This document shows, in pieces, positions 5,964 through 52,174 of a stretch of 52,174 bases of DNA. The first letter of the stretch is position 1. Each line of letters opens with the position of its first letter. Made by a program: the position numbers and the translations under genes. The DNA is from a virus, in the IMG/VR virus record IMGVR_UViG_3300025889_000166, positions 1 through 52,174 of that record, one strand, 5' to 3'. The notes under the pieces were generated by a model. That model did not search any database. It was not told where the DNA came from and saw nothing but the letters and a program-made list of their open reading frames with translations.

Positions 5964-8441
5964 ATGTCGGACACAATTCTTGGCGGCGACTTCACGGTCT
6001 ATTGGATCGACGAGAACCGCCAGAAGCACATCGAATGGACCGGGACCGCGACGGGCACGCGCACGGTCAACGAACTATACTCCGCGATGGCGAACCTCCA
6101 AGATGAGGCGACCACCGGAGATGACGCGACGTTCATGTCTGCGGAAACGCCCACCGAGTACACCATCGGCCTAATCGACGCCAATGATAGCGAACCCGCT
6201 TACATCCAGTACGAAGCTGTCCAGCATCTGACGGGTGGCGCGATCAAGACTTCCGGGTGGACACGCACACCGGGGTCGGCTACGGGTATCGTCGTCGTTC
6301 CTGTGACGAATAGCACCAACACCATTGTCACAGCAGATGTCGGATTTGACATCACTCACGCTGACGGTGACTCGGGCACTTTGCTCGAAGTCCTGACACC
6401 GAACGGGACGACTGACTACCTCGTCATCCGGCCCGATTCGTCAGCCGCCGCGAACAACTTCGACTCGACCTCTGGCACTCTCACGTGCAACGCGAACACA
6501 GCCACACAAACAGCCGCCAGCAAAACCGGCGAGCAGGTCTGGGCGAACCTCTTCAACGTCACCCCGATTGAAGCCGACACTCACGTCTATATGTACCAAG
6601 GCGCAGTTGCTGACGCTTCACGCGCTCGCATCTCGGACATTAACGACTCGACTCAGGATTGGTGGGCAGAGGGCTCTTTCGACCGTCTCATCTACATCCG
6701 CGACTTCACGAGCGCGTCAAATCCGATCATCGACGGCGGTCGTGTCACCGCTTTTGCCCGCAAGGCGAATACGCTTTACGACAGCTTTGAGGTGTCTACC
6801 AGCACGACATCTGGCGGTCGGAACCCCGTACCGCTTTCGTCTGCTGCTGACCTGAACCACACCACCGGATACAGGTCGATCACGCTGTCCGGTGACAGCG
6901 GAAACTTCACGGTAGGTGACGAGATTCAGGACGACTCCAACGGTGCGCGTGGAATTATCACACTCATCACGGGATCGTCTCCGACACGGACGTTGCACTA
7001 CTACATCATCGGAGATCCGCAGACGGATTTCGACGGTGGGGCAATCACGAACAACGACGACACAGGTGCGGCGACGGGAAGCTCTTCCCCGACCAACCAA
7101 GGCCCTGCGCTCGCAACGTGGTTCACGTCGAACAGCTTCCCGACGATTACCCACGCGAACACGACCGCAGACATTGACGACGATGGAACAGCGGAGTTCT
7201 ACGGCATCACGATCGATTGCAACCAGAACCCGCTGACCGAGGTGTACGAGTGGCTTCAGCACGTCACGCGAAACGGTGAGACAGGGACAACCGCCACGGA
7301 CGGCATTGAGGGCGAGCAGTACGTCGGGCCGACTGTGTACCTCGCCTACAGTGGCACGGTCACGGGAACCGTCTCGGAGGGTAGTGATGTCACGCAAGCG
7401 ACATCTGGCGCGACAGGCATCGTCGTCAGTCACGACACGACCAACAAGGTTCTGCTGCTACGAGACACGCGAGGCACGTTCAACACGGCCAACGTGGTCA
7501 CAGATAATGACGCGGGTGGCACGTTTACGCCTAACAGCGCAGCGGTGACGTTCAACGCTAATAAGCAGAGCCCGTTCGGGAGCTTGGCTGGTGGCCGTTT
7601 CTTCGGCGCTCGCGGTGTCGTGCTGACCGACTACCTGTCGAGCGACGAAAATAATTTTCAGCTAATCGACGCCCCCGGCGACACGAAGCAGCGACCCATC
7701 GCCATTTCGCTGTCAGTCTCTAACCTCGTCGGAACAGACGAGACGACGGCTACGGACGATTATGTCGTCAGCCATCGCTTGCTCGGTGCAGGGCTCGCGA
7801 TTGACAAAGAGGAGTACAGCGCGGCAGGTGGAGAGGCGCAGGGTGCAAACACGTTGGTCGTGGATACCGCAATCACGGCAGACACTCCCGGCAAGAGCAC
7901 GGGCGGCGTCCTCAACCTCCGCGATGCGTCGGACAACGACAAGCACTATCGGCTGCGGTTCTCAAGCTGGGCGACATCAACGTTCACGCTGGCGTCCATC
8001 GAGAGCATCACGCTAGATGCGGCGACGGACAGCGACACGGTGGTCGCAACCGGCTCGCCTTTCACCAACGCCAAGCGTGGCGATCTTGTCCTCAACCAGA
8101 CGCAGAACGCGGTGAGCTACGTCACGACAGTCGATGACGCGAACACGCTGCAAATCAGCCCAGCGATTACCGGACAGAGCAGCACGGACACCATTGAGAT
8201 TAATACCTGTCCGGTCGCGATTGATACGGCTGATGATGTCTACGTGAGCCTCATCGACGAGTTCGCAACGAGCAGCAGCGCATCGGTTAGCATCGTCTAC
8301 GTCTCGCAAATCGACTACCGCGTGAAGGTCAGCAACACGAGGAACGCGACCAAGATCAAGCGTTTCGTGACCGACGATGCTACGACCGGGACAGACCGGA
8401 ACGTGGCTACGATTCGCAACGAAGACACGATTCATACCTAA
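5964..8441 (+). CDS. Large virion or appendage protein
   Basis: An 825-residue protein, the largest wholly contained protein of the appendage block. It starts at an ATG 11 bases after the previous gene, preceded by GGGACAGAG. It is Thr/Asp/Ala rich and beta-rich, with repeated segments of the type GxVTGTVSEGSDVTQATSGA and GDEIQDDSNGARGIIT, which look like several copies of one small beta domain that binds or modifies the surface. No catalytic motif was seen. Its end overlaps the next start (TAATG). Confidence 0.65.
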   Translation: MSDTILGGDFTVYWIDENRQKHIEWTGTATGTRTVNELYSAMANLQDEATTGDDATFMSAETPTEYTIGLIDANDSEPAYIQYEAVQHLTGGAIKTSGWTRTPGSATGIVVVPVTNSTNTIVTADVGFDITHADGDSGTLLEVLTPNGTTDYLVIRPDSSAAANNFDSTSGTLTCNANTATQTAASKTGEQVWANLFNVTPIEADTHVYMYQGAVADASRARISDINDSTQDWWAEGSFDRLIYIRDFTSASNPIIDGGRVTAFARKANTLYDSFEVSTSTTSGGRNPVPLSSAADLNHTTGYRSITLSGDSGNFTVGDEIQDDSNGARGIITLITGSSPTRTLHYYIIGDPQTDFDGGAITNNDDTGAATGSSSPTNQGPALATWFTSNSFPTITHANTTADIDDDGTAEFYGITIDCNQNPLTEVYEWLQHVTRNGETGTTATDGIEGEQYVGPTVYLAYSGTVTGTVSEGSDVTQATSGATGIVVSHDTTNKVLLLRDTRGTFNTANVVTDNDAGGTFTPNSAAVTFNANKQSPFGSLAGGRFFGARGVVLTDYLSSDENNFQLIDAPGDTKQRPIAISLSVSNLVGTDETTATDDYVVSHRLLGAGLAIDKEEYSAAGGEAQGANTLVVDTAITADTPGKSTGGVLNLRDASDNDKHYRLRFSSWATSTFTLASIESITLDAATDSDTVVATGSPFTNAKRGDLVLNQTQNAVSYVTTVDDANTLQISPAITGQSSTDTIEINTCPVAIDTADDVYVSLIDEFATSSSASVSIVYVSQIDYRVKVSNTRNATKIKRFVTDDATTGTDRNVATIRNEDTIHT

Positions 8442-11537: not shown

Positions 11538-12200
11538 GTGGACCGCATCGCGGCGGTCGTCCTCTTGGTCATCCTGATGGTGACGCAGTGGCAACTCGTC
11601 GCGACTCGCGAACGCCTTGCTCGGGCCGACACGATAGCTGACAGCATAGCCGCAGACGCGGCCATTGACGCGATCCGGCGAGATAGCGCATGGAGCGCGG
11701 CGGTCGCATCGACTCGGCGCGATCTGGCGCAAGCGATCAGCGAGAGGGACAGCACGAGCGCGGCTCTCGTCGCTCGTCTGGATGACGCGAATATCCGTAT
11801 AGCGATGCTGACTGATCTGTCAGCGACAGCAAAGGGCGAGGTCGAGTCACTAGCGCACCGAGCGACGGTGCTCACGGACTCTCTCGCGGCTCTCGCGGAT
11901 ACGGTCGAGCGTTGGGAAGGCGAGATCGACGACGGGGTTCTCACGGCGAGGTGGCGGTTCGACCTACCACCCGCTCGTCATACGCTGACCTACGGAGTCA
12001 CGATACCCGGCGAGCTTGTCGTGTCTGAGACGGGCGACGGCAGGACGGTCGTGCTCGCGAGATCGACGCACCCGAGAGCATCGCTCGACATCGGAGAGGT
12101 CGTCGTATCCGAGCCAACCAAAGACGAGCAGCCTGTCGCGTGGCGTCGGTATCTGTGGGCCGCGCTGGCTGGCGCTATCGCTTGGGAGATGGCTCGCTGA
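11538..12200 (+). CDS. Membrane-anchored coiled-coil protein (spanin-like)
   Basis: A 220-residue protein with a GTG start directly after the previous stop. It has an N-terminal membrane segment (about residues 4-20), a long Ala/Arg/Asp/Ser-rich helical region to about residue 130, a small beta-prone region and a second hydrophobic segment near the C-terminus (about 203-218). This resembles an envelope-spanning or spanin-like layout, though no lipobox is visible and the role is inferred. The stop codon is followed immediately by eight T residues. Confidence 0.6.
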   Translation: MDRIAAVVLLVILMVTQWQLVATRERLARADTIADSIAADAAIDAIRRDSAWSAAVASTRRDLAQAISERDSTSAALVARLDDANIRIAMLTDLSATAKGEVESLAHRATVLTDSLAALADTVERWEGEIDDGVLTARWRFDLPPARHTLTYGVTIPGELVVSETGDGRTVVLARSTHPRASLDIGEVVVSEPTKDEQPVAWRRYLWAALAGAIAWEMAR

Positions 12201-12208
12201 TTTTTTTT
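12174..12208 (+). terminator. Possible intrinsic terminator and/or AT-rich upstream promoter element
   Basis: A short hairpin, GCTATC (12174-12179) with GATGGC (12188-12193), is followed after seven bases by the T8 run at 12201-12208. The stem is weak and its distance to the T run is long for a terminator. The T run ends ten bases before the first operator of promoter module 1, exactly as at 33343, so it may also act as an upstream promoter element. Confidence 0.4.
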
Positions 12209-12218
12209 GTATTGAGGT

Positions 12219-12259
12219 GTTGACACCCGCAACAGTCTGTATAGATTGATAGCATCAAC
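12219..12259 (+). promoter_or_regulatory. Promoter/operator module, copy 1
   Basis: The -35 box TTGACA is at 12220-12225, then a 16-bp spacer, then -10 box TAGATT at 12242-12247. The first 15-bp inverted repeat, GTTGACACCCGCAAC (12219-12233), covers the -35 box. The second, ATTGATAGCATCAAC (12245-12259), covers the end of the -10 box and the likely transcription start. The leader CCACCACTTAGGAGAT follows, with the AGGAG ribosome-binding site for the gene at 12279. Confidence 0.8.
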
Positions 12260-12278
12260 CACCACTTAGGAGATTAAA

Positions 12279-13691: not shown

Positions 13692-14017
13692 AGATCGACG
13701 GCAAGGTCGTACACATCCTCGACGAGCAGAACGGAGAAGGGCGACGAGGACCGTGGCGCAAACAGGACTTCGTGGTCGAGATCCCCGGCGAGTACCCGAA
13801 GCCGGTATGCTGCACGATGTGGGGCGACAACATCGACGGCTTCGCGCTTCAGGTTGGCGACGACGTTTCGGTGAGCATCGACATCAAGAGCCGCGAGTAC
13901 AACGGACGCTGGTACACAGACGTGACAGCGTGGAAGCTCGACAAGCGGGCAGCGGTCACGGCACCATCGTCACCACCAGCGCGGATGTCCGACCCTGACG
14001 ACGACCTGCCGTTCTGA
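13688..14017 (+). CDS. ssb: Single-stranded DNA-binding protein (DUF3127/OB-fold)
   Basis: A 109-residue protein overlapping the previous gene by four bases. The OB-fold region shows the DUF3127 pattern: WRKQDFVVEIPGEYPKPV, then WGDNID, then SREYNGRWYTDVTAW. The chain ends in an acidic tip, DPDDDLPF, which is the hallmark of bacterial and phage SSB tails that recruit replication and repair enzymes. It should coat single-stranded DNA during phage replication and recombination. Confidence 0.85.
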   Translation: MKIDGKVVHILDEQNGEGRRGPWRKQDFVVEIPGEYPKPVCCTMWGDNIDGFALQVGDDVSVSIDIKSREYNGRWYTDVTAWKLDKRAAVTAPSSPPARMSDPDDDLPF

Positions 14018-14283
14018 TGGCGACGACACCGACGCCCGGTAGCCAGTGCCACACCGTGCTGACCTACCTCAAACGGCACGGCAGCATCACGGCGATGCAG
14101 GCCATGACGGACTTCCGATGCTATCGGCTGGCTGCGCGGATCAAGGACTTGCGTGACATGGGCTACGACATCGAAACGCACACGGAGGATCACGGCAACG
14201 GCACGCACGCGAGGTACGAGCTACGCATCACCGACGCAGACTTGGAGGCGGCAGGGCAAATGTCGATGTTCGCCAGTGGGTGA
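14017..14283 (+). CDS. Winged-helix DNA-binding protein (HTH_39-like)
   Basis: An 88-residue protein whose ATG overlaps the SSB stop. Residues 10-50 match the phage HTH_39 pattern: VLTYLKRHGSITAMQAM, then YRLAARIKDLRDMGYDIE. The C-terminus carries QMSMF, which resembles the beta-clamp-binding pentapeptide QL(S/D)LF. Its position between SSB and two nucleases suggests a role in replication or recombination, possibly clamp-linked (inference). Confidence 0.7.
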   Translation: MATTPTPGSQCHTVLTYLKRHGSITAMQAMTDFRCYRLAARIKDLRDMGYDIETHTEDHGNGTHARYELRITDADLEAAGQMSMFASG

Positions 14284-14883: not shown

Positions 14884-15148
14884 CAGGTTCAGCAGCTATA
14901 TAGGCTGCGATCACGGCTCGACCGGGTGGATCGTCGTCGAGCACGAGGAGGGCCAGTGCGAGAAGGTCGAGTGGACTCGCGAGGGTCCGATCTACACGCA
15001 GGGCGAGGCGTTTGCCGAGGGCGTCAGAATCATCCTCGCTGATCGCGTACACGACGCCATATATGGCGACAGGCAGGACGACGTGCTGAAGGAGGTGTGG
15101 GAGTACCTGCGTCGGCCTGCCATCATCGTGACGGGTACGGTACACTGA
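14876..15148 (+). CDS. Hypothetical early protein
   Basis: A 90-residue protein with a GGAGG box six bases before the ATG and an overlap with the preceding nuclease gene. It alternates beta-prone segments (GWIVVEHEEG) with an acidic helix near the middle. No domain was recognised. The next gene starts in a TGATG overlap. Confidence 0.6.
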   Translation: MISRFSSYIGCDHGSTGWIVVEHEEGQCEKVEWTREGPIYTQGEAFAEGVRIILADRVHDAIYGDRQDDVLKEVWEYLRRPAIIVTGTVH

Positions 15149-15771
15149 TGGCTACCGACATCACGATCGAACAGCGCATCAAACTGGCTGCGTCTCGCTA
15201 CGGTAGCGAGGCTCCGAGCTTCGATGATGTGCTGGCGGCGATCACGCCTGACTACGGCAGCGACGAATCTCACACGATGCTCTGGCACGATTTAGCTAGG
15301 GAAGCGCAAAGCGTACCGCCAAGCATCAAGCTAGACTTCAAGGCTTGCGGTCACCTTCTCCATCACCGAGGGACGTGCAAGTGCAAGGGCACGACCTACG
15401 CGAACCGAGGCAGTGCGCCAGACAAGGGCACGATCGACGACATCGTTGAGCGGTACCGAGAGGGGCGCACGGTGCAACAGGTCGCGAAGGAGTTCGGGAT
15501 CTCTGCTGGTCGGATACGTCGGTATCTCAGCAAGCGCGGCGTCGAGTTGCGAGAGAGGACACCGAAGCACACGGGTCAGCCGTTCTGCATCCGCGCAGGG
15601 TGTGAGAGGACAGTCAAGGGAGACGACCTGTATTGCTCACTGCGATGCGCTAGTAAGTCGGGCGCAGGGTCAGGCCGGACTTGTGCAGCCGAGGGATGTA
15701 GCGAGCCGACCTTCCGCTCGACGTACAAATACTGCGGCACAGAGTGCCGAGAGCGATCTCGGAATGGTTGA
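15148..15771 (+). CDS. Helix-turn-helix protein with zinc-ribbon C-terminus
   Basis: A 207-residue protein. A resolvase-type helix-turn-helix lies at about residues 92-132 (DDIVERYREGRTVQQVAKEF then SAGRIRRYLSKRGV). It is followed by two Cys-rich units, each with Cys pairs spaced as in zinc knuckles (CIRAGCERTV with YCSLRC; CAAEGCSEPTF with YCGTEC), and an upstream C-G-H/C-K-C cluster. It is probably a DNA-binding regulator. Its stop at 15771 falls within the degenerate operator-like repeat upstream of the replication genes. Confidence 0.65.
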   Translation: MATDITIEQRIKLAASRYGSEAPSFDDVLAAITPDYGSDESHTMLWHDLAREAQSVPPSIKLDFKACGHLLHHRGTCKCKGTTYANRGSAPDKGTIDDIVERYREGRTVQQVAKEFGISAGRIRRYLSKRGVELRERTPKHTGQPFCIRAGCERTVKGDDLYCSLRCASKSGAGSGRTCAAEGCSEPTFRSTYKYCGTECRERSRNG

Positions 15772-15809
15772 GGGTTCCAACAGCACGCGGATGGGTTTAG
15801 ATTCTCAAC
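15767..15809 (+). promoter_or_regulatory. Degenerate operator pair upstream of replication genes
   Basis: GTTGAGGGTTCCAAC (15767-15781) and GTTTAGATTCTCAAC (15795-15809) match the GTTGA-N5-TCAAC operator pattern with one mismatch each. A TAGATT box identical to the -10 of modules 1 and 2 lies at 15798-15803, but no TTGACA is at the right distance, and the operators are 28 bp apart rather than 26. It may be a binding site without a strong promoter. Confidence 0.35.
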
Positions 15810-16035: not shown

Positions 16036-16801
16036 ACTGCGCGTGCATGACTGGGAGAGCTGGCAGACATATCGCAAGGATCGCGACCCGCCGCCGTGGA
16101 TCAAGGTCCACCGGAGGATCGTTCACAACGTCAAATGGGCGAGCCTATCGGACGCCGAGCGGGGTCAGCTTCTAGCGATCTGGGTGCTTGCGGCAGACGA
16201 CGACGGGTACATTCCAGACTGCCCGGTGATCGTCCGCAAGCTCTGCATGATGGACAGTGAGCTAGATCTGTGGCGTCTAGTTGACCTCGGTTTCCTCGAC
16301 ACGGTGACGACAAGCCGACGTCAGCGTGACGCCAACGTGACGGCATCGGGCGGTCAGGGTGCCGTCACAAGTGCTCACGAATCACACGACGATGAGGGCG
16401 TAAGCGACGGCACGGGAACACGTTACGAGCCTGACGTCAACGTGACGTCATCGTGGCGTCAGCATGACGCCCTAGAAGCAGAGGCAGAGGCAGAGACAGA
16501 AGATATATCGGTGCCCTCGCAGTTGTTCTCGCTGATGAGATCGGGAGACACGATCTACACCGTCGAGAAAGCCTACGCACTGGTGAAAGCGGCAGGCTTG
16601 TCGGACGAGGAGGTGATCGCGGCGAGGCGTGCCGTATGCGAGCAGACCGAGCGGCGGTACTGGAAGGCTCTGCCGACGTGGCTGCGTGAGATCGCCAGCG
16701 GCGGGCTGGTCAGACCGGACACTAGCGCAGCCGATGCCCGCAAGCAGCGCCGGGAGTACGAGCGCGAGCTTGAGGCACGCATACAGGGCGACATCGCATG
16801 A
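16028..16801 (+). CDS. Replication initiator / replisome organiser (DnaD-like)
   Basis: A 257-residue protein; the ATG at 16028 overlaps the previous gene. The N-terminus (WIKVHRRIVHNVKWASLSD, ERGQLLAIWVLAADDDGYIP) matches the winged-helix domain of phage replisome organisers. A low-complexity Glu/Ala stretch (EAEAEAETED) joins it to a helical C-terminal domain with a LPTWLREI stretch. It lies directly upstream of a DnaB-like helicase with a four-base overlap, so it probably recognises the phage origin and loads the helicase. Confidence 0.75.
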   Translation: MGRLRVHDWESWQTYRKDRDPPPWIKVHRRIVHNVKWASLSDAERGQLLAIWVLAADDDGYIPDCPVIVRKLCMMDSELDLWRLVDLGFLDTVTTSRRQRDANVTASGGQGAVTSAHESHDDEGVSDGTGTRYEPDVNVTSSWRQHDALEAEAEAETEDISVPSQLFSLMRSGDTIYTVEKAYALVKAAGLSDEEVIAARRAVCEQTERRYWKALPTWLREIASGGLVRPDTSAADARKQRREYERELEARIQGDIA

Positions 16802-17685
16802 GCGACATTTTCTCGCCGGAGTTCCGCGAGGCTTTTACCGCGCGCCAGATGTCGCCAGTCTCAGCGGTGCCGAGCCCATTCCCGATGCTCAACGAGTTCA
16901 GCGGAGATGAGGGCGGCAAGGTCGGGACAGCGGACGGCTGGTTCGTCGTTGTCGGCGGCAACCCGAAACACGGGAAGACGATTCTCGCGATCAACTGGCT
17001 ATGGTCGGCACTCGCATCGGGACGAAAGCCGATGTTCGTATCGTTGGAGATGAGTCAGTGGCAAGTCGCGACGAGACTGTACGCGATGATGACGCGCACC
17101 GATCTCTGGAAGGTTGAGAAGCGCGGGTTCCGGCGTGAGCAGTTCAACCAGATATGGCGTGAGCTTGACCCGATTCGAAACGACTTGACGCTGTACGTGG
17201 ACGATACGCCTCTGGTCCGCACCGACGAGATCATCGCGTCGATGCAGAGGCACGCCGACGAGGGCGCAGACTTTTTCGTCGTGGACTATCTGCAACTCGC
17301 TGCGCTCGGCAATTCCGAGCAGATCAACGAGGCGGTCGTGATCGCGACGACTAACCTGCGACATTTTGCCAAGACGGTCGGCAAGCCGGTCATCGTGCTA
17401 AGTCAGTTCAACAGGCAGACGAGCATGAACTACACCGACACGCCGATGCCTCAAGGGCTGCACGGCGGCATGATCGTCGAGGCGTCGGCAGATCAGATCC
17501 TGCTCATCGACCATAGCCGCTACGAGAAACTACCGGGCAAGGCGCGGACGTGGCTCACGGTCACAAATCGCCACGGCCCGAGCGACGATATTCCGATCGA
17601 ATACATCTGGGAGACTCAGACCGTCCAGCAGGGCGACGAGGATCTCGAAGAGCAGTGGCCTACAAACACCCGAACCAACTTCTGA
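16798..17685 (+). CDS. Replicative DNA helicase, DnaB-like ATPase
   Basis: A 295-residue RecA-fold helicase. Walker A is GNPKHGKT (residues 54-61), the VSLEMS motif is at 81-86, Walker B is VVDYLQL (161-167), and the SQFNR sensor motif is near 202-206. It is much shorter than full DnaB (about 450 residues) and lacks the N-terminal primase-binding domain. No primase was recognised in the window, so the host primase may be used. ATPGS ends in a conserved-looking acidic tail. Confidence 0.85.
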   Translation: MSDIFSPEFREAFTARQMSPVSAVPSPFPMLNEFSGDEGGKVGTADGWFVVVGGNPKHGKTILAINWLWSALASGRKPMFVSLEMSQWQVATRLYAMMTRTDLWKVEKRGFRREQFNQIWRELDPIRNDLTLYVDDTPLVRTDEIIASMQRHADEGADFFVVDYLQLAALGNSEQINEAVVIATTNLRHFAKTVGKPVIVLSQFNRQTSMNYTDTPMPQGLHGGMIVEASADQILLIDHSRYEKLPGKARTWLTVTNRHGPSDDIPIEYIWETQTVQQGDEDLEEQWPTNTRTNF

Positions 17686-17687
17686 CG

Positions 17688-17891
17688 ATGGCAATCACAA
17701 AGACCAAAATCCTGCAAGCTCTCCCCAAGCTCACTGACCAGCAGCGCGACATCATCACGCGCTACTACGGGCTGGGCCACGACCTACCCGAGTCGATGAC
17801 ACAGATCGCGACGAGGTATGGCGTCAGCGCACAACGCGTCTCGAAGATCCGCACAGACTGTGAGCAAAAGATCCTCGAAGGTACTCTGTGA
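17688..17891 (+). CDS. Sigma-70 region 4-like mini-protein
   Basis: A 67-residue protein starting two bases after the helicase stop. It reads like an isolated sigma-70 region 4: LTDQQRDIITRYYGLG, then TQIATRYGVSAQRVSKIRTD and a QKIL ending, corresponding to the helix-turn-helix that contacts the -35 element. There are no regions 1-3. Promoter module 2 starts eight bases after its stop. It could bind the repeated TTGACA/operator sites or remodel host RNA polymerase; this is inference. Confidence 0.65.
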   Translation: MAITKTKILQALPKLTDQQRDIITRYYGLGHDLPESMTQIATRYGVSAQRVSKIRTDCEQKILEGTL

Positions 17892-17898
17892 ATTAGGT

Positions 17899-17939
17899 GT
17901 TGACATCTCCAACGTGATGTATAGATTGATAGCATCAAC
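17899..17939 (+). promoter_or_regulatory. Promoter/operator module, copy 2
   Basis: -35 TTGACA at 17900-17905, 16-bp spacer, -10 TAGATT at 17922-17927. Operators GTTGACATCTCCAAC (17899-17913) and ATTGATAGCATCAAC (17925-17939) are 26 bp apart. The leader CCACCACTTAGGAGAT follows directly and ends before the ATG at 17959. Confidence 0.8.
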
Positions 17940-17958
17940 CACCACTTAGGAGATTCAA

Positions 17959-18327
17959 ATGATCGACACGACCTACACGCGCCTCGCCCAGCACGACCGC
18001 CCAGTGACCCGCTTCCTCGAAGGGCGCGAGTCCGCTCGCTCGACGATCGTGGTGATGCGCGACGGCAAGGCCACCAGCCTTCGGGTCTACTCCGACGACG
18101 CCGGTCACTACTACGTGAGGACGGGCAAGCGGGGCGCGACGAAGGAGCTGGTGGTCGGCCACACCTCGATCCACCCCGGACGCTACTCCTTCACGATCAA
18201 GCCACAATGGGAGATCGATAACGAGTGGATGGAGGAGCGCCGGTCGGAACGACGCCGGAACCGCCTCTATCGGATTGAGGCGCTGGCCCGCCAGATGGAG
18301 AGTCCGGCGCAGGAGGTGACAGCATGA
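17959..18327 (+). CDS. Early protein, hypothetical
   Basis: A 122-residue basic protein expressed from promoter module 2. The N-terminal 75 residues are beta-prone with STIVVMRDGKATSLRVYSDD and YYVRTGKRG; the C-terminal part is a highly charged helix (EERRSERRRNRLYRIEALA). No domain was recognised. Nucleic-acid binding would fit the basic C-terminus. It overlaps the following gene by four bases. Confidence 0.65.
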   Translation: MIDTTYTRLAQHDRPVTRFLEGRESARSTIVVMRDGKATSLRVYSDDAGHYYVRTGKRGATKELVVGHTSIHPGRYSFTIKPQWEIDNEWMEERRSERRRNRLYRIEALARQMESPAQEVTA

Positions 18328-20938: not shown

Positions 20939-20946
20939 AATTAGGT

Positions 20947-20987
20947 GTTGACACCATCAACGCCATGTGTATGTTTCAGTTATCAAC
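20947..20987 (+). promoter_or_regulatory. Promoter/operator module, copy 3
   Basis: -35 TTGACA at 20948-20953, 16-bp spacer, -10 TATGTT at 20970-20975. The first operator, GTTGACACCATCAAC (20947-20961), has perfect arms. The second, GTTTCAGTTATCAAC (20973-20987), has a degenerate left arm but keeps the 26-bp spacing. The leader has CCACCACCAAGGAGAT before the ATG at 21009. Confidence 0.75.
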
Positions 20988-21008
20988 CACCACCAAGGAG
21001 ATCGAAAG

Positions 21009-31671: not shown

Positions 31672-31679
31672 AACAGGGT

Positions 31680-31720
31680 GTTGACATCCTCAACAGTATG
31701 CTTAAGTTGATACCATCAAC
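31680..31720 (+). promoter_or_regulatory. Promoter/operator module, copy 4
   Basis: -35 TTGACA at 31681-31686, 16-bp spacer, -10 TAAGTT at 31703-31708. Operators GTTGACATCCTCAAC (31680-31694) and GTTGATACCATCAAC (31706-31720) both have perfect arms and are 26 bp apart. The leader has CCACCACTAAGGAGAT before the ATG at 31744. Confidence 0.85.
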
Positions 31721-31743
31721 ACACCACCACTAAGGAGATCACG

Positions 31744-32814: not shown

Positions 32815-33335
32815 GAGTCGTAGTGATGGCGGCTACGATCGTCAGCGCAGCGTGTCACGCAGCGGAGCCCGAGCCGGTAGTGCTTGACCCGATCTACGCG
32901 GAGCCTGACCCGATCGCAGAGTACCTGCTATCCGCTCGCTGGCATTGCGAGTTCGATCACTGCGCGGACAGCGACGACATCGACCGCATCGCTGACGCGA
33001 TCCATCGACACAGTGCTCGTCTCGGCTTGCCCGTCGATCTGATGGTCGGCGTGATGATGGTCGAAGACCCGTGGCTCGACACTCTCGTCGTAAGCTCGGC
33101 AGGCGCTCGCGGTCTGTACCAAGTCATGCCGATGCACGCCGACGCTTGGGCCGAGTGTACTACGCCGCTGACGACGATAGAGGGCTCGGTCTGTCGCGGT
33201 GCCGAGGTGCTAGCCGACTTCCGACGCGGACGCACGCTGACGCAGAGCCTCCTGCGCTACAACGGATGCAACCGACCGGGGCCGTGTCGCTCCTACCCAG
33301 ACAAGGTTCTCCGAGAGGCCGCTCTGGTCGATTGA
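32811..33335 (+). CDS. Exported lytic transglycosylase (SLT-like)
   Basis: A 174-residue protein with a short hydrophobic N-terminus (MRVVVMAATIVSAAC) that looks like a signal peptide or weak lipobox. The SLT core has VMMVEDPW (with the probable catalytic Glu), then SSAGARGLYQVMPMHADAWAE, the usual S-x-x-G-A-x-G-L-x-Q-V-M-P pattern, and LLRYNGC near the end. It should cut the glycan strands of peptidoglycan. It may be the endolysin or an exported helper, although it lies far from the holin-like genes and inside the accessory island. Confidence 0.75.
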   Translation: MRVVVMAATIVSAACHAAEPEPVVLDPIYAEPDPIAEYLLSARWHCEFDHCADSDDIDRIADAIHRHSARLGLPVDLMVGVMMVEDPWLDTLVVSSAGARGLYQVMPMHADAWAECTTPLTTIEGSVCRGAEVLADFRRGRTLTQSLLRYNGCNRPGPCRSYPDKVLREAALVD

Positions 33336-33343
33336 TTTTTTTT
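33311..33343 (+). terminator. Possible intrinsic terminator and/or AT-rich upstream promoter element
   Basis: A small hairpin with a bulged G (CCGAGAG with CTCTGG, 33311-33327) precedes the T8 run at 33336-33343, which immediately follows the TGA of the transglycosylase. The T run ends ten bases before the first operator of module 5, the same spacing as at 12201-12208. Confidence 0.4.
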
Positions 33344-33353
33344 CTCCGCACCT

Positions 33354-33394
33354 GTTGACACCCTCAACAGTATGCTTAAGTTGATACCATCAAC
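33354..33394 (+). promoter_or_regulatory. Promoter/operator module, copy 5
   Basis: -35 TTGACA at 33355-33360, 16-bp spacer, -10 TAAGTT at 33377-33382. Operators GTTGACACCCTCAAC (33354-33368) and GTTGATACCATCAAC (33380-33394) have perfect arms, 26 bp apart. The core is nearly identical to copy 4. The leader carries CCACCACTTACAGGAGA before the ATG at 33419. Confidence 0.85.
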
Positions 33395-33418
33395 CACCAC
33401 TTACAGGAGACCAGACAG

Positions 33419-46187: not shown

Positions 46188-46600
46188 GAGTCGCGAATCA
46201 TGAGGTACTCGTCATCGACCTCGCAGAGCGTATGCGTGGCGAGCCGTTCGTCTGGGGGCAGACCGATTGTGCGTCGATCTGTCGCCGCACGCTGACCGTG
46301 ATGCTAGGTGTTGATCCGTGGCGTGAGGCGTTGCCGAGCTACACTAATTTGCGCGAGGCGCGACGTGCGTTCGGTAAGGTAGACATGACGAGGATCTGGG
46401 ACGATGCAAGCGAAGTCCGCGATCGTCTGATCGTGACGGGCGACATCGGCATCGCTCCGCAGCTAGACGGTCACCGCCTGCCGTCGTTGTATGTAGCACT
46501 GCCGCGCTCGCTGGCTCTGATCGCGAACCCGTCAGAAGGCACAAGGACTATCCCGAGGGCTCAACTCCTAGAGGGGACGAGGTGGTATAGATATGGCTAG
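46181..46600 (+). CDS. NlpC/P60-like tail-tip peptidase (gpK-like, DUF6950)
   Basis: A 139-residue protein with a GTG start preceded by GGAGG. It has EPFVWGQTDCASICRRTLTV, the F-x-W-G-x-x-D-C motif with the probable catalytic Cys, and downstream GDIGI and RLPSLYVALP. Such domains occupy the place of lambda gpK in siphoviral tail tips and may cut the cell wall during entry. It overlaps the J-like gene. Confidence 0.7.
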   Translation: MVRVANHEVLVIDLAERMRGEPFVWGQTDCASICRRTLTVMLGVDPWREALPSYTNLREARRAFGKVDMTRIWDDASEVRDRLIVTGDIGIAPQLDGHRLPSLYVALPRSLALIANPSEGTRTIPRAQLLEGTRWYRYG

Positions 46601-49600
46601 TGTCACAGCGGCGACTATCATCAAAACAGGGCTCGTACTCGTCGGTCAGTGGGCGCTCGGGAAGCTACAGGATGCGCTAGACTCAGCGGGCGCACTCGGC
46701 GGCAAGAATCGCGAGTCGGTTGTTCGTCGCATTGAGGCGCAGAAGGTCAACGTCCGAAGCACGCAGGCATCGCTGCCGGTAGTGTACGGTATCCAGCGGG
46801 TCGGGTTGATCGTCAACGATGTTCGCAACGCCAGCAGCCCCAGTACGTTCTTCAGCGGAGCGACCGGCAAGGACGTGCTGGTAAAATCCGGTGCCATCGC
46901 TATCGGCTCCGAGGACGGGTCTGGTATACAAGCGGTAGACAACATCCGCGTCTACGACGACGGCGACTACGCCATCACATCACCCGCGTCGTTCCCCTCG
47001 TCGGCTGTCAACACCAACGTGGCGCTGCCGTACACGAACTATCTGAAGTACATCATCCAAGACGGTGATGATGCTCAGACGGTACCGAGTGACCTCGGGA
47101 CGGCGATGGGTTGGAGTGCGGACTACAAAGCGCGAGGCGTAGCATACGGGGCGTTCTTCTGCCTGTACAACGAGAACGTCTGGAAGCGCGGCGTCCCGCA
47201 GATCACGATGGATGTGACCGGGAACAGAGTTTACGATCCACGCACCTCGTCATGGATCGGCTACAACGCATCGGGCGCATCCTCTGACAATCCCGCACTC
47301 TGCATCCTCGACTATCTAACCTCGAAGCGGTACGGGGCGGGCATCCCCTACGCAGCGCGGGACGGTGGCACGCTCGACTTCATCGACGAGCAGAGCTTTG
47401 AGGACGCAGCAGACTACTGCGACGTGTTGGTCAACACGTACACGGCAGGACCGCAGGAGAAGCGGTTCCGCATGAACGCGGTGGTCGATACTTCGCGGGT
47501 CGTGTCCGCGAACCTCGTCGAGATGTTGGCGACTTGCCGAGGCGAACTCGTCTGGCAGAACGGCAAATATCGGCTCATCATCCGACAGCCGCAGACGGCT
47601 CAATCTTTTGAGTTGACCGAGGACAATATCGTCGGCGCGTTGGATTGGACACGGCAAGGAACCAGCGTACCGAACCTTATTGAAGCCACGTTCCCGAACG
47701 GCTCGGGCGACGACTATGTGGCCGACAGCATCCAGTTCCCGCCAGTAGGCACGACGACCTATCTGGACGAGGACAACGGCATCGAAAACCGGCTGGAGAT
47801 CGCGCTGCCGTACACGACGAGCATCTACCAAGCGCAGCGCACCGTGGAGACGATGCTCAAGGAGTTGCGTGCGGACGTGTACGTCACTCTAACGGCCACG
47901 CAAGCCGCGTACACCTTGCAGGTCGGAGATGTCGTCAACGTCACTCACAGCGGCCCTCAGTGGTCGCAGAAGCCATTCGTGGTGCGTAGCGTTGCGCTTA
48001 CGGCTGACGGACTCGTGGGGCTCGGCTTGCAAGAGTACGACTCGACCGCGTACACCCTGACGACCCCGGATCAAGAGTCGTCGGACGATGCCATCGACTT
48101 GCCCGATCCGCAACGTGCGTTCATCACGATCGGTATGTCTGGCGACCGCTTCGTGTCGCAGGGTGCGACGACGAGCGGAGGAGTGGCAGCGCAGCAGTGG
48201 AAGCGGCGGCTCCAGTTCCGCACGGGGATCAACACGCGGTCGGTCAACATTGTATACGACTTCGACCGGCCCGGTCTGGCTGGGGGAGCCGCGACCAACT
48301 TCTCGCGCAACTACGTCCTCAACGTCACGCCTGACACTGAGGTCACGCACATCCTGCAAGACGGTGCGAGCGCCGATCAGATTTTCCTCGCTCGTGACGA
48401 CAACGGCACGACCAGATACGACGAGGCGATCAGTGTCACGATCACGCCGAACGATACGACGGGCGGCGGCGGGCAAGACGGGACAGTCGTCACGACACAG
48501 ATCCTCGACCTCGCACTAGAGGATGATCTCGGGTTTCGGGTAGACGCTGAGGTCGAAGTCGTCGAGGCGAACTACGCGGAGGCGAACGGTGATGCGTGGT
48601 TCTCGTTTACGACCTCCATCGCATACTTCGCGCAAGGCTTCACGATGCCAGCCGGTACCGACCGCGATCTGGCGTCGGTCGAGGTGTACCTGCAACGGGT
48701 CGGATCGCCAACTGGCGACGTGAACCTGTACGTCTACGACAACAACGCTACGCCGACACCGGACGAGCCAAACGCTTCGGTCGCTGCGGCAACGACATCA
48801 TTCACGGCATCTAGTCTGAGCGCATCGGGTCAGGTCGTTCGTCTGGACATGGACCGCGTGAGCCTGACCGCTGGCGGTTCCTATTGGGTGGTCGTCGAAC
48901 ACATCGACAGCAGCGGAACCGACTACGTGCAGATCCGCGTGGACGAGTCGAGCCCGAACGGTTCGGACATGACCGACACGGCTACCTCGCCAGAGATCGT
49001 ATCGTGGACCGTGACGAGTGCCTCGACCAGACAGGCGGCGGGCTTCTACGTGCGGCGGTTCGGCACGCAGGTCGTCCCGACCCGACAGCTTGCGCCCGCT
49101 GCGGACAAGAGTGCGAAGTTCACATGGCAAGCGGACGGCACCGTTGCACTCGCCAGTCTCACCAGCGGAGGCGGTGGTGGTGCGACCACCCTCGCCGGCC
49201 TGACCGACACCACGATCACGGCACCGGGCGCTGGCGACTTCCTCCGCTACAACGGCTCGACGTGGCTAAACACCACACTCGTCGCAGGAGACATCCCTAG
49301 CCTAGACGCTGCCAAGATCACGACGGGGACGTTCGCTACTGCGCGTATCCCCGACCTCGACGCCGCCAAGATCACGACAGGCACGTTCGCCATCGGGCGC
49401 ATCCCGGTTGCATCGATTGACCACGATTCGTTGCTCAACTTTGTCGCAAACGAACACGTCGATCATTCAGCCGTGGCGATTACTGGAAGTTCAGGACTCA
49501 CAGGTGGCGGCGATCTTACCGCGTCTAGCAGTATCACGGTGAAATACACGTCGGGCTCCAACCTCATCGACAGTGCCGCAGACAACGGGGATGTCGTCGC

Positions 49601-52174
49601 GGCTGATTACATCCTGTATCAAGACTTAGACACGGGAGAGGTTCGTAAGGACACCGTGGGCGCTCTGCCGTTTACGAACAACACGGGAGACGTCGAGAGC
49701 GTAGCTAATGCGACCAACGGCGGCTTGACCGCTACGGACAGCGGCGGGCCAGACGTTACCCTCGCGCTCGCTGTTGACAACCTATTAGATCATTCTGGCA
49801 CTCTAGCTGCCGCTGACCGTTTTGCTGTTTGGGAGTCAGGCGCGGGGACGCGCAAGATCGCTGCATCATCTATTGGGTTGAATCTTTTCAACAACAACCT
49901 GTCCTTAGACGCAACCGACATTGCTGCTGGACAGTTCGCAACCGTAGGCGGGACGTACACGTTCGCGGGGGCGGCTGTTCTGCGGATGGGAAGCAACACC
50001 ACGCAGCCGACCCTTCAATTCTGGGATCGTGATACAGTAGGAGGTGCGTACAGGGATGTCATCACGGTTCCCGACGTCGAGGAGCTAGACATCGGGTCAC
50101 TCGGTTGGGCTGTAGACATTCTCGGCTCATCGGTGCTCGTCAATGGTGCCGCAATAGGTACAGTCTCATCGGTCAGTAATGCGACGAATGGCGGCATCAC
50201 GGTCACAAATAACACGACCACGCCAACGCTCGCGGTTGACGCGAGTGATTTGCCCAACTTCACTGCCGCTACCTCTATGGAAGCGACGGATAGGTTCGTC
50301 GTCCACGAGGCAGGGCAAGCATCCCCAAGTGCGAGGCAGATCGCTCCTGTCGACATCCCGTTGAGCATCTTCAACAACAACTTGGGCCTCGGGCAGAACG
50401 TCCAAGGTGCGGGGATCACTCTTAGTACCACGACGGTCACGAACGACACAATCGCCATCGACTACCAGACCACATCGAACGTCATCTCCGATGCGAACAA
50501 TTTCGCGGGCCTGAGCGTCGATGCTGCGAATGACAGGATCTTGATTGACGATGTGAGCGCAGCCGGTACGAGCGTCGATCCCAGAGTCGGGTACATCAAC
50601 GTCAATGATCTTCCGTTCGCCACCCCAACCCACACACACCCCGCTTCCGATATCACTGCGGGTACATTCGGCTCTGGCGACTACACGTTCCCCGCCGACT
50701 TGACGGTTCAGGACCAACTTCAGGTGACCGGCACTGGCCCACACTCCATTGGTGGCGCGGCAGTTGGCAGACACCAAGTTCTCCAGTACGGTTCATTCAC
50801 CAGTGACGGGAGCTTAACATACGCGTCGGCCTTCCTTCTGGATACGGCTCTCGAAGGGGCGTCTGGTGACACCGACAGCTTGGTGGGGATGTATCTAAGC
50901 GCGAACATCACTACGCAAGGCGCAACGCAAACGGTCACCGACGTAGCTCAGCTTCTGATTGAAGAACCAGCGATAGTGGTGGGCACGGGTGACACGATCA
51001 CCAATGCCAGCACTCTCAAGATCAACAGTGCGCCTGATGAGGCTACCAACAATTACGCCCTGTGGGTCGCGAGCGGGCTGTCGAGATTCTCTGGCGACCT
51101 ACAGGCGTCGGGGGATCTGTTCGTGAATGCCGGACTCAGCCTCCAGAACGAGACATCGGCCACCGATCCTACGGCAGCAAACTCAGGCTACCAGACGCTC
51201 TACTCGTTCGACAACGGCAGCACATTTGAGCTTCGGACGATCGTGTCCGATTCTCCGAACCCAGATCTGGTCCGCAACATCCCTCTCGTCACCGGCTCGG
51301 CAGCTAATAACGAGCTGCTCGTCTCTACCGGCACAGACCATGAAGCAGAGTGGTCAGGCAGCGGACTAACGTGGAACGGCACGACACTGAACGCCACGAA
51401 CTTCACCGGAAACGGGTCGGGGCTTAGTGGTGTGTCTGCCAGTGGTCTGACGCTCAACGCGACAGTCGCCACGAACACCTACTATCCGGTATGGTCCGAC
51501 GCCACTTCGGGTTCGGGCCAGACGACCTTTGGTGACAACGTAATAAGAGTCGTCATCGGTACGCCGGATGAGGTTACGATTGCGGGGAATCTCACGACCG
51601 ACGAGGTAGACACGACCACCGGGGGAATCCTGACCGGAGGCACCCAGCGCGTTCAGCAGGACGGGGATCTCGTCAACATCGGTTCCATCACAGCGACGGG
51701 AAACTTGATAACCAGTGGAGCGGGTCCGCACTCAATCGGCGGCTCAACTGAAGATCATGTACAGGTGCAAATTGCAGGAACCTTTACATCCGGTGGCAGT
51801 TCTTTCTCTAACTCGTCTTTACGCTTGGACTCGACCCTAATCGGAGCGTCGGGCGACACCAGCTTCCAAGCCCAATTCGCCGCTGGAATCGCGGTATCTA
51901 ATGGGTCAATAACAACCCAAGCAAACGACACGGTGACCGATGTCGCCACGATGATCTTGGGTGAGCCAAACATCACAGTTGGCACCTCGGGAGCGGTGAC
52001 AAATGCGTCAACCCTGAAGATCACTGGTGCGCCGGATGAAGGTACCAACAACTACGCGCTTTTCATCGATTCCGGTGACGTTCGGATGGAGAGCGTTGTC
52101 TACACGGGCAATCTCCAACCGCTCTCTAACTCGACCTTCGCGGTCGGCACGGCGATCAATCGGTGGTCTACCGT
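46593..52174 (+). CDS. Tail-tip J-like host specificity protein with fibre repeats (runs off the right edge)
   Basis: 1860 codons are visible without a stop in this frame. The first ~480 residues resemble the J-like tail-tip family (VYGIQRVGLIV, ALCILDYLTSKRYGAGIP, GELVWQNGKYRLIIRQP, VGDVVNVTHSGPQWSQKPFVV). A middle part has Fn3/jelly-roll-like modules. From about residue 900 there are fibre modules: a DAAKITTGTF repeat (49302-49409), two NATNGG(L/I)T units, and two GPHSIGG...NASTLKI...APDEATNNYAL units (from 50736 and 51723). It should bind the receptor and form the central fibre. The remainder probably continues at base 1. Confidence 0.8.
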   Translation, partial: MASVTAATIIKTGLVLVGQWALGKLQDALDSAGALGGKNRESVVRRIEAQKVNVRSTQASLPVVYGIQRVGLIVNDVRNASSPSTFFSGATGKDVLVKSGAIAIGSEDGSGIQAVDNIRVYDDGDYAITSPASFPSSAVNTNVALPYTNYLKYIIQDGDDAQTVPSDLGTAMGWSADYKARGVAYGAFFCLYNENVWKRGVPQITMDVTGNRVYDPRTSSWIGYNASGASSDNPALCILDYLTSKRYGAGIPYAARDGGTLDFIDEQSFEDAADYCDVLVNTYTAGPQEKRFRMNAVVDTSRVVSANLVEMLATCRGELVWQNGKYRLIIRQPQTAQSFELTEDNIVGALDWTRQGTSVPNLIEATFPNGSGDDYVADSIQFPPVGTTTYLDEDNGIENRLEIALPYTTSIYQAQRTVETMLKELRADVYVTLTATQAAYTLQVGDVVNVTHSGPQWSQKPFVVRSVALTADGLVGLGLQEYDSTAYTLTTPDQESSDDAIDLPDPQRAFITIGMSGDRFVSQGATTSGGVAAQQWKRRLQFRTGINTRSVNIVYDFDRPGLAGGAATNFSRNYVLNVTPDTEVTHILQDGASADQIFLARDDNGTTRYDEAISVTITPNDTTGGGGQDGTVVTTQILDLALEDDLGFRVDAEVEVVEANYAEANGDAWFSFTTSIAYFAQGFTMPAGTDRDLASVEVYLQRVGSPTGDVNLYVYDNNATPTPDEPNASVAAATTSFTASSLSASGQVVRLDMDRVSLTAGGSYWVVVEHIDSSGTDYVQIRVDESSPNGSDMTDTATSPEIVSWTVTSASTRQAAGFYVRRFGTQVVPTRQLAPAADKSAKFTWQADGTVALASLTSGGGGGATTLAGLTDTTITAPGAGDFLRYNGSTWLNTTLVAGDIPSLDAAKITTGTFATARIPDLDAAKITTGTFAIGRIPVASIDHDSLLNFVANEHVDHSAVAITGSSGLTGGGDLTASSSITVKYTSGSNLIDSAADNGDVVAADYILYQDLDTGEVRKDTVGALPFTNNTGDVESVANATNGGLTATDSGGPDVTLALAVDNLLDHSGTLAAADRFAVWESGAGTRKIAASSIGLNLFNNNLSLDATDIAAGQFATVGGTYTFAGAAVLRMGSNTTQPTLQFWDRDTVGGAYRDVITVPDVEELDIGSLGWAVDILGSSVLVNGAAIGTVSSVSNATNGGITVTNNTTTPTLAVDASDLPNFTAATSMEATDRFVVHEAGQASPSARQIAPVDIPLSIFNNNLGLGQNVQGAGITLSTTTVTNDTIAIDYQTTSNVISDANNFAGLSVDAANDRILIDDVSAAGTSVDPRVGYINVNDLPFATPTHTHPASDITAGTFGSGDYTFPADLTVQDQLQVTGTGPHSIGGAAVGRHQVLQYGSFTSDGSLTYASAFLLDTALEGASGDTDSLVGMYLSANITTQGATQTVTDVAQLLIEEPAIVVGTGDTITNASTLKINSAPDEATNNYALWVASGLSRFSGDLQASGDLFVNAGLSLQNETSATDPTAANSGYQTLYSFDNGSTFELRTIVSDSPNPDLVRNIPLVTGSAANNELLVSTGTDHEAEWSGSGLTWNGTTLNATNFTGNGSGLSGVSASGLTLNATVATNTYYPVWSDATSGSGQTTFGDNVIRVVIGTPDEVTIAGNLTTDEVDTTTGGILTGGTQRVQQDGDLVNIGSITATGNLITSGAGPHSIGGSTEDHVQVQIAGTFTSGGSSFSNSSLRLDSTLIGASGDTSFQAQFAAGIAVSNGSITTQANDTVTDVATMILGEPNITVGTSGAVTNASTLKITGAPDEGTNNYALFIDSGDVRMESVVYTGNLQPLSNSTFAVGTAINRWST
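49302..49409 (+). repeat. 54-base tandem repeat in the fibre gene
   Basis: Two direct copies (49302-49355 and 49356-49409) encode LDAAKITTGTFA(T/I)(A/G)RIP. Such motifs are common spacers in long phage fibres. Replication slippage could change the copy number. Confidence 0.8.
50736..52095 (+). repeat. Two copies of a ~120-residue fibre module
   Basis: Copy A (about 50736-51100) and copy B (about 51723-52095) share GPHSIGG, FTS(D/G)GS, GASGDT, TVTDVA, EP, NASTLKI and APDE-TNNYAL in the same order. They are separated by about 620 bases of other fibre sequence. Confidence 0.75.

Follow-up and report, generated by a model that had tools for sequence, protein, structure and literature searches.

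ArdK, a protein of 102 amino acids (aa), carries a helix-turn-helix (HTH) that resembles the -35-reading HTH of sigma70 and represses five promoters of plasmid R388 via TTGACA repeats (PMC9723621). Repression extends to synthetic inverted repeats of TTGACA spaced by 3-4 bp, and the specificity residues of ArdK are R45 and Q46 (PMC9723621). Among Microbacterium phages, Quhwah (cluster EC) is described with a 77-aa sigma-annotated gene and 12 repeated intergenic motifs, and MementoMori (cluster EI) with an 86-aa sigma-annotated gene and 5 such motifs (PMC7302621). Phage proteins consisting of region 4 alone are already found in structure databases, where they bear no more than a family name: BFVD contains stand-alone Sigma70_r4 proteins from uncultured phages (e.g., A0A6J5LKM7, 94 aa) that share the region-4-only size and fold of the protein described below.

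Here, we describe a small region 4 protein and the repeated promoters that surround its gene in a 52,174-base IMG/VR virus record with a G+C content of 60%, analyzed over its whole length (hereafter, the window). Window proteins match the terminase, portal, head-morphogenesis, and tape-measure families of PHROG, and all genes picked by a codon scan lie on the plus strand, which suggests a siphovirus-like phage. An integrase was not detected in the window proteins scanned. In the last 5.5 kb (46600-52174), the scan picked no closed plus-strand gene, and this part is probably occupied by a large gene running past the contig end. A 67-residue protein and five candidate target promoters in one genome make it testable whether a detached sigma region 4 is used for repression, for appropriation, or in some other way. 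The features concerned are the following (L004 is a related contig introduced below).

12215-12278, plus strand: promoter module 1, TTGACA at 12220, preceding the replication unit to which the region 4 gene belongs
16798-17685, plus strand: DnaB_C-type helicase, 295 aa, immediately before the region 4 gene, with the same neighbor in L004
17688-17891, plus strand: stand-alone sigma region 4 protein, 67 aa
17895-17958, plus strand: promoter module 2, TTGACA at 17900-17905, 16-bp spacer, TAGATT at 17922-17927, leader ATCAACCACCACTTAGGAGA
17899-17913, no strand assigned: dyad O1 of module 2 (GTTGACATCTCCAAC), overlapping the -35 element
17925-17939, no strand assigned: dyad O2 of module 2 (ATTGATAGCATCAAC), overlapping -10/+1
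20943-21008, plus strand: promoter module 3, TTGACA at 20948, O1 perfect, left arm of O2 broken
31676-31743, plus strand: promoter module 4, TTGACA at 31681, O1 and O2 perfect
33350-33418, plus strand: promoter module 5, TTGACA at 33355, both dyads perfect, preceding a unit with head protease and capsid genes

The 67-aa ORF extends from an ATG at 17688, 2 bases past the helicase stop at 17685, to a TGA stop ending at 17891, and its codon use is typical for the genes of this phage (0.28 per codon). An ortholog with 84% amino-acid identity is encoded in L004 (IMGVR_UViG_3300038825_001358, 12.5 kb), a contig that shares with the window long blocks of 80-92% nucleotide identity. The two genes differ at 9, 4, and 18 first, second, and third codon positions, respectively (dN 0.086, dS 0.549, dN/dS ~0.16); conservation in two genomes, the bias of the differences to third positions, and the low dN/dS together indicate a genuine gene that is maintained by purifying selection. 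Gene order in L004 is the same as in the window, that is, the helicase (97% amino-acid identity), the 67-aa protein, and then a module at the same distance, in which both dyads are perfect. The C-terminal DnaB domain is the sole Pfam match of the 295-aa helicase (16798-17685), the N-terminal domain being unmatched.

Among the collections searched, only the window and L004 yielded the gene, and a search of 84,980 species genomes of bacteria and archaea gave no ortholog. No orthologs were detected in named phages at the limits used, and a later search yielded weak matches, mostly to the C-termini of sigma-like proteins. In phage MrSmee and in Caudoviricetes MW202627, no small sigma-annotated gene lies beside the DnaB gene, and in MrSmee the 74-aa product of the gene after DnaB has no Pfam match. 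The contigs of the relatives G003, G004, and G005 contain no DnaB gene and are thus uninformative on the presence of the region 4 gene. Two sets of candidate orthologs were rejected: L002 and L003 seem to encode multi-HTH proteins beside a sheath-like gene, and the L018 protein is a full-length phage sigma factor rather than a region-4-only ortholog.

The sequence-only reading had taken the protein for region 4 of a sigma factor without the rest, and this assignment holds. The protein matches Pfam Sigma70_r4 (PF04545) with E=9.1e-9 and 35.1 bits, above the cut-off of 24.1, and PHROG_351, 'RNA polymerase sigma factor', with 1.4e-7; a profile of the two orthologs searched against the PDB retrieved region 4 of SigB and RpoH with E of about 5e-4. 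Sigma region 2 (PF04542) has no match at E<=10 anywhere in the window, and the region by which a functional sigma factor reads the -10 element and binds the beta' clamp is absent from the protein, which comprises only 67 aa. Structure prediction, proposed earlier as a check, returned an HTH and, on comparison, the sigma region 4 fold: the AlphaFold model (pLDDT 88) consists of four confident helices (H1, 5-14; H2, 17-27; H3, 37-44; recognition helix, 48-64), and sigma region 4, by itself or within initiation complexes, accounts for all 50 of the best PDB matches listed, with an rmsd of 1.2-2 A for the compact matches and a TM-score of 0.80 (rmsd 1.2) against S. aureus SigA (4g6d). The model stops 3 residues past the recognition helix, with no dimerisation domain, and the protein appears to lack the C-terminal tail of sigma. 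This free-standing region 4 domain probably serves the phage as a small, sequence-specific transcription regulator. Late activators of the ArpU/RinA type are about 140 aa long and act at the late/terminase promoter; the 67-aa length and the location in the replication unit do not fit this type, and phage activator profiles gave only weak matches (E 0.017-0.09).

The residues with which sigma reads the -35 element are R584, E585, R588, and Q589 (E. coli numbering). In the profile alignment, the corresponding stretch R-E-R-V-R-Q of sigma is replaced by A-Q-R-V-S-K in the phage protein (recognition helix S-A-Q-R-V-S-K-I vs S-R-E-R-V-R-Q-I), so that in the alignment of the two orthologs the sigma residues are not kept, and A/S48, Q49, S52, and K53 are found instead; residue 48 is not the same in both orthologs.

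Five promoter modules exist, as had been claimed, with a common layout of TTGACA, 16-bp spacer, TAnnTT, leader ATCAAC, A/C-rich stretch, AGGAGA, and ATG. The region 4 gene does end 8 bases before one of them (stop at 17891, TTGACA from 17900), and the -35 box of this module lies within a palindrome, which is imperfect, with one arm mismatch in GTTGACATCTCCAAC. The O1 dyad has the form GTTGA-N5-TCAAC, with the -35 element in the left arm, and in 5/5 modules TTGACA forms part of a GTTG(A)N5(T)CAAC dyad. Exact GTTGA-N5-TCAAC occurs 5 times in the 52 kb window, always within modules, against 0.065 occurrences expected. Half-sites of the dyads are spaced by 10 bp (one turn), and in 4/5 modules a second dyad, O2, is centered 26 bp downstream of O1, over -10/+1; O2 is broken in module 3 and in the L004 counterpart of module 3.

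Ten distinct modules from four contigs were picked by the hexamers and the leader, without a dyad requirement. In this set, the right arm of O1, CAAC, is invariant in 10/10 modules and 11/12 other spacer positions vary (P=0.003 for the invariant CAAC falling at the O1 right arm), with the qualification that L004, L006, and L007 were fetched with the dyad pattern, so that the sample is partly dyad-chosen, the five window copies being free of this effect. The modules are related copies, and their similarity is therefore partly due to descent; the invariance of CAAC amid a varying spacer points to occupation of the -35 element by a symmetric DNA-binding protein. The layout of O1 and O2 over the -35 and -10/+1 of consensus promoters looks operator-like. 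O2 is the less certain operator because its right arm is the start of the leader, which is also found without a promoter (L004 9141), and O2 may not be an operator.

No Rfam RNA element was found in 11000-35000, and a terminator scan around modules 1-3 gave nothing above chance. A GATTTTTTTT tract, which may be a terminator or an UP-like element, lies just upstream of modules 1 (12195-12214) and 5 (33330-33349) and of modules in L007 and L065. Outside the modules, two dyad copies with one mismatch each (GTTGAGGGTTCCAAC and GTTTAGATTCTCAAC) are located 28 bp apart at 15767-15809. In L007 (9279-9599, minus strand), a module at the place of module 4 drives a homolog of the gene that follows module 2 in the window (17896-18211), and module and gene seem to move together as a cassette. 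In the same contig, a lone dyad, GTTGACACCATCAAC (7117-7131, minus strand), is followed at once by CACCACTAAGGAGA with no -10 element between them, and looks like what remains of a module after a deletion from O1 to O2.

The module pattern was not found in the same 84,980 bacterial and archaeal genomes, and in 11 other contigs the dyads are not, as a rule, coupled to region 4 proteins. Promoter-like GTTGACANNNNCAAC dyads are present in five unrelated phage contigs (L023, L029, L057, L067, and L070), and some of these have a second downstream dyad at other spacings, with a center distance of 40 in L023 and 33 in L029. The dyads of L027 (G008), one of the contigs with no region-4-only protein, are flanked by two weak HTH matches encoded in opposite orientations, an arrangement that suggests a repressor/cro-like pair; this class of dyads was thus probably reached convergently by different regulators.

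We tentatively propose, with a probability of about 0.4, that the region 4 protein is linked to the modules as a dyad-reading repressor. Coverage of a consensus promoter at both the -35 and -10/+1 by a dimeric protein has repression as its simplest reading, and the obvious candidate is the region 4 protein, whose fold reads TTGAC-like sites; the gene and the adjacent module are, furthermore, kept together in two genomes. Under this scenario, the protein would be expressed from the gene that closes the first replication unit and would act as a dimer or a cooperative pair, with the TTGA/TCAA half-sites in both the -35 and the -10/+1 dyad as its binding sites. Its targets would be the phage's own promoters of the host sigmaA type, where the bound protein would compete with region 4 of sigmaA and with RNA polymerase, and the expected outcome is that expression of up to five units is lowered or timed, in a negative feedback like that of ArdK on R388. 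The fuller evolutionary version, in which a true sigma region 4 became detached and turned repressor, with one half of its inverted-repeat operator formed by the -35 core and polymerase being excluded at five copies of one promoter, is doubtful. Several observations count against the repressor reading: the recognition residues are replaced, with residue 48 varying between the orthologs; a dimerisation domain, such as KorA and ArdK carry, is missing; two other HTH proteins are encoded in the window, with matches to HTH_58 (15097-15771) and HTH_39 (14017-14283); and most of the other dyad-bearing phages have no region-4-only protein.

Much of the same evidence bears on the somewhat improbable alternative that this is a region 4-type DNA-binder with other targets, e.g., a regulator of the replication unit or an origin-associated protein, the adjoining module being coincidental and the dyads being read by another protein of phage or host. 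The position of the gene directly behind a DnaB-type helicase in the replication operon, the altered recognition residues, which suggest a new target, the similar dyads of phages that encode no such protein, and the two additional HTH proteins all speak for it; however, the region 4 protein and the TTGAC dyads are the only pair that shares a recognition logic, and a canonical phage repressor that could read the dyads was not found in the window, where a Pfam scan of 53 ORFs detected no CI/XRE-type repressor above the cut-off (the best HTH_3 match being sub-threshold).

The sequence-only reading had suggested a mini-sigma or sigma-appropriating factor acting on the modules. Appropriation factors of the T4 AsiA/MotA type bind sigma region 4 or the beta flap and redirect polymerase; the phage protein would replace region 4 of sigmaA at the beta-flap tip and redirect polymerase to the modules or other phage sites. 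The part of this proposal that stood is that region 4 occurs alone; consensus -35 elements with operator-like dyads fit repression better. The closest folds do include region 4 of sigmaA with WhiB proteins, beta-flap chimeras, and phage G1 ORF67, and lytic cluster EC and EI phages of Microbacterium pair a small sigma-annotated gene with repeated intergenic motifs (PMC7302621); the EC and EI proteins have no Pfam region 4 match, however, so that this parallel may be one of likeness rather than homology. With TTGACA, a 16-bp spacer, and TAnnTT, the modules have no need of a mini-sigma or appropriator, this mode of action does not require two dyads per module, and the protein ends shortly past the recognition helix, apparently without the C-terminal tail of sigma, all of which makes appropriation unlikely. 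That the gene is what is left of a full-length phage sigma factor, now without function and in decay, is very improbable: its weak sequence neighbors in actinophages are the C-termini of 257-280 aa sigma-like proteins and L018 encodes a 302-aa phage sigma with a 39% identical region 4, but the gene has its own start codon and a dN/dS of about 0.16, is intact in two genomes, and is accompanied by no region 2 debris in the window.

The family and fold of the protein are those of sigma-70 region 4 (PF04545; SigB and SigA of actinobacteria, T. aquaticus SigA 1ku7, S. aureus SigA 4g6d); compared with a full sigma factor, it consists of region 4 alone, without regions 1-3 and apparently without the C-terminal tail, and the specificity residues of the recognition helix are replaced. 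Among phages, the likeness to Quhwah and MementoMori consists in a small sigma-annotated protein accompanied by 5-12 repeated motifs ahead of genes, and both are described as lytic siphoviruses of ~54 kb with exonuclease genes, with no repressor or integrase reported (PMC7302621). Their proteins are 18-20% identical to the 67-aa protein and have no Pfam region 4 match, and the motifs differ from those of the window and are not TTGAC dyads. The cluster EI repeats of MementoMori (L086), at 7236, 13082, 16683, and 21913, contain GGTATAGAGTAGGCGTTAGCC, preceded by a CCCGNNTTAGG-like block, and resemble promoters whose -35 element is unusual. Conserved leader and/or dyad elements repeated ahead of numerous actinophage genes are also known as SAS/ESAS in cluster K mycobacteriophages (PMC3203893) and as inverted repeats in cluster O (PMC4351075) and cluster EG (GATCAACCNNGGTTGATC, PMC7302621); their sequences are unlike the modules, and the available parts of these three sources describe no promoter hexamer within a dyad.

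The likeness to ArdK and KorA (PF16509) lies in a small protein with a sigma-like HTH. The repeats through which ArdK represses its five promoters contain TTGACA at the -35 position; dyads built on the -35 hexamer are found in 5/5 phage modules, which would be candidate targets of the phage protein. The phage protein is not a member of the KorA/ArdK family (KORA profile, 12.3 bits vs a cut-off of 26.7, E=0.21), and, judging from position, only the glutamine of the ArdK specificity pair, Q46, would have a counterpart, Q49. KorA and ArdK carry a C-terminal dimerisation domain, whereas the 67-aa phage protein has none, and the natural operators of ArdK are direct repeats, whereas the phage modules carry dyads. 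If the phage protein is a repressor, it would represent a second, independent route to the ArdK-type use of a sigma-like HTH against sigma.
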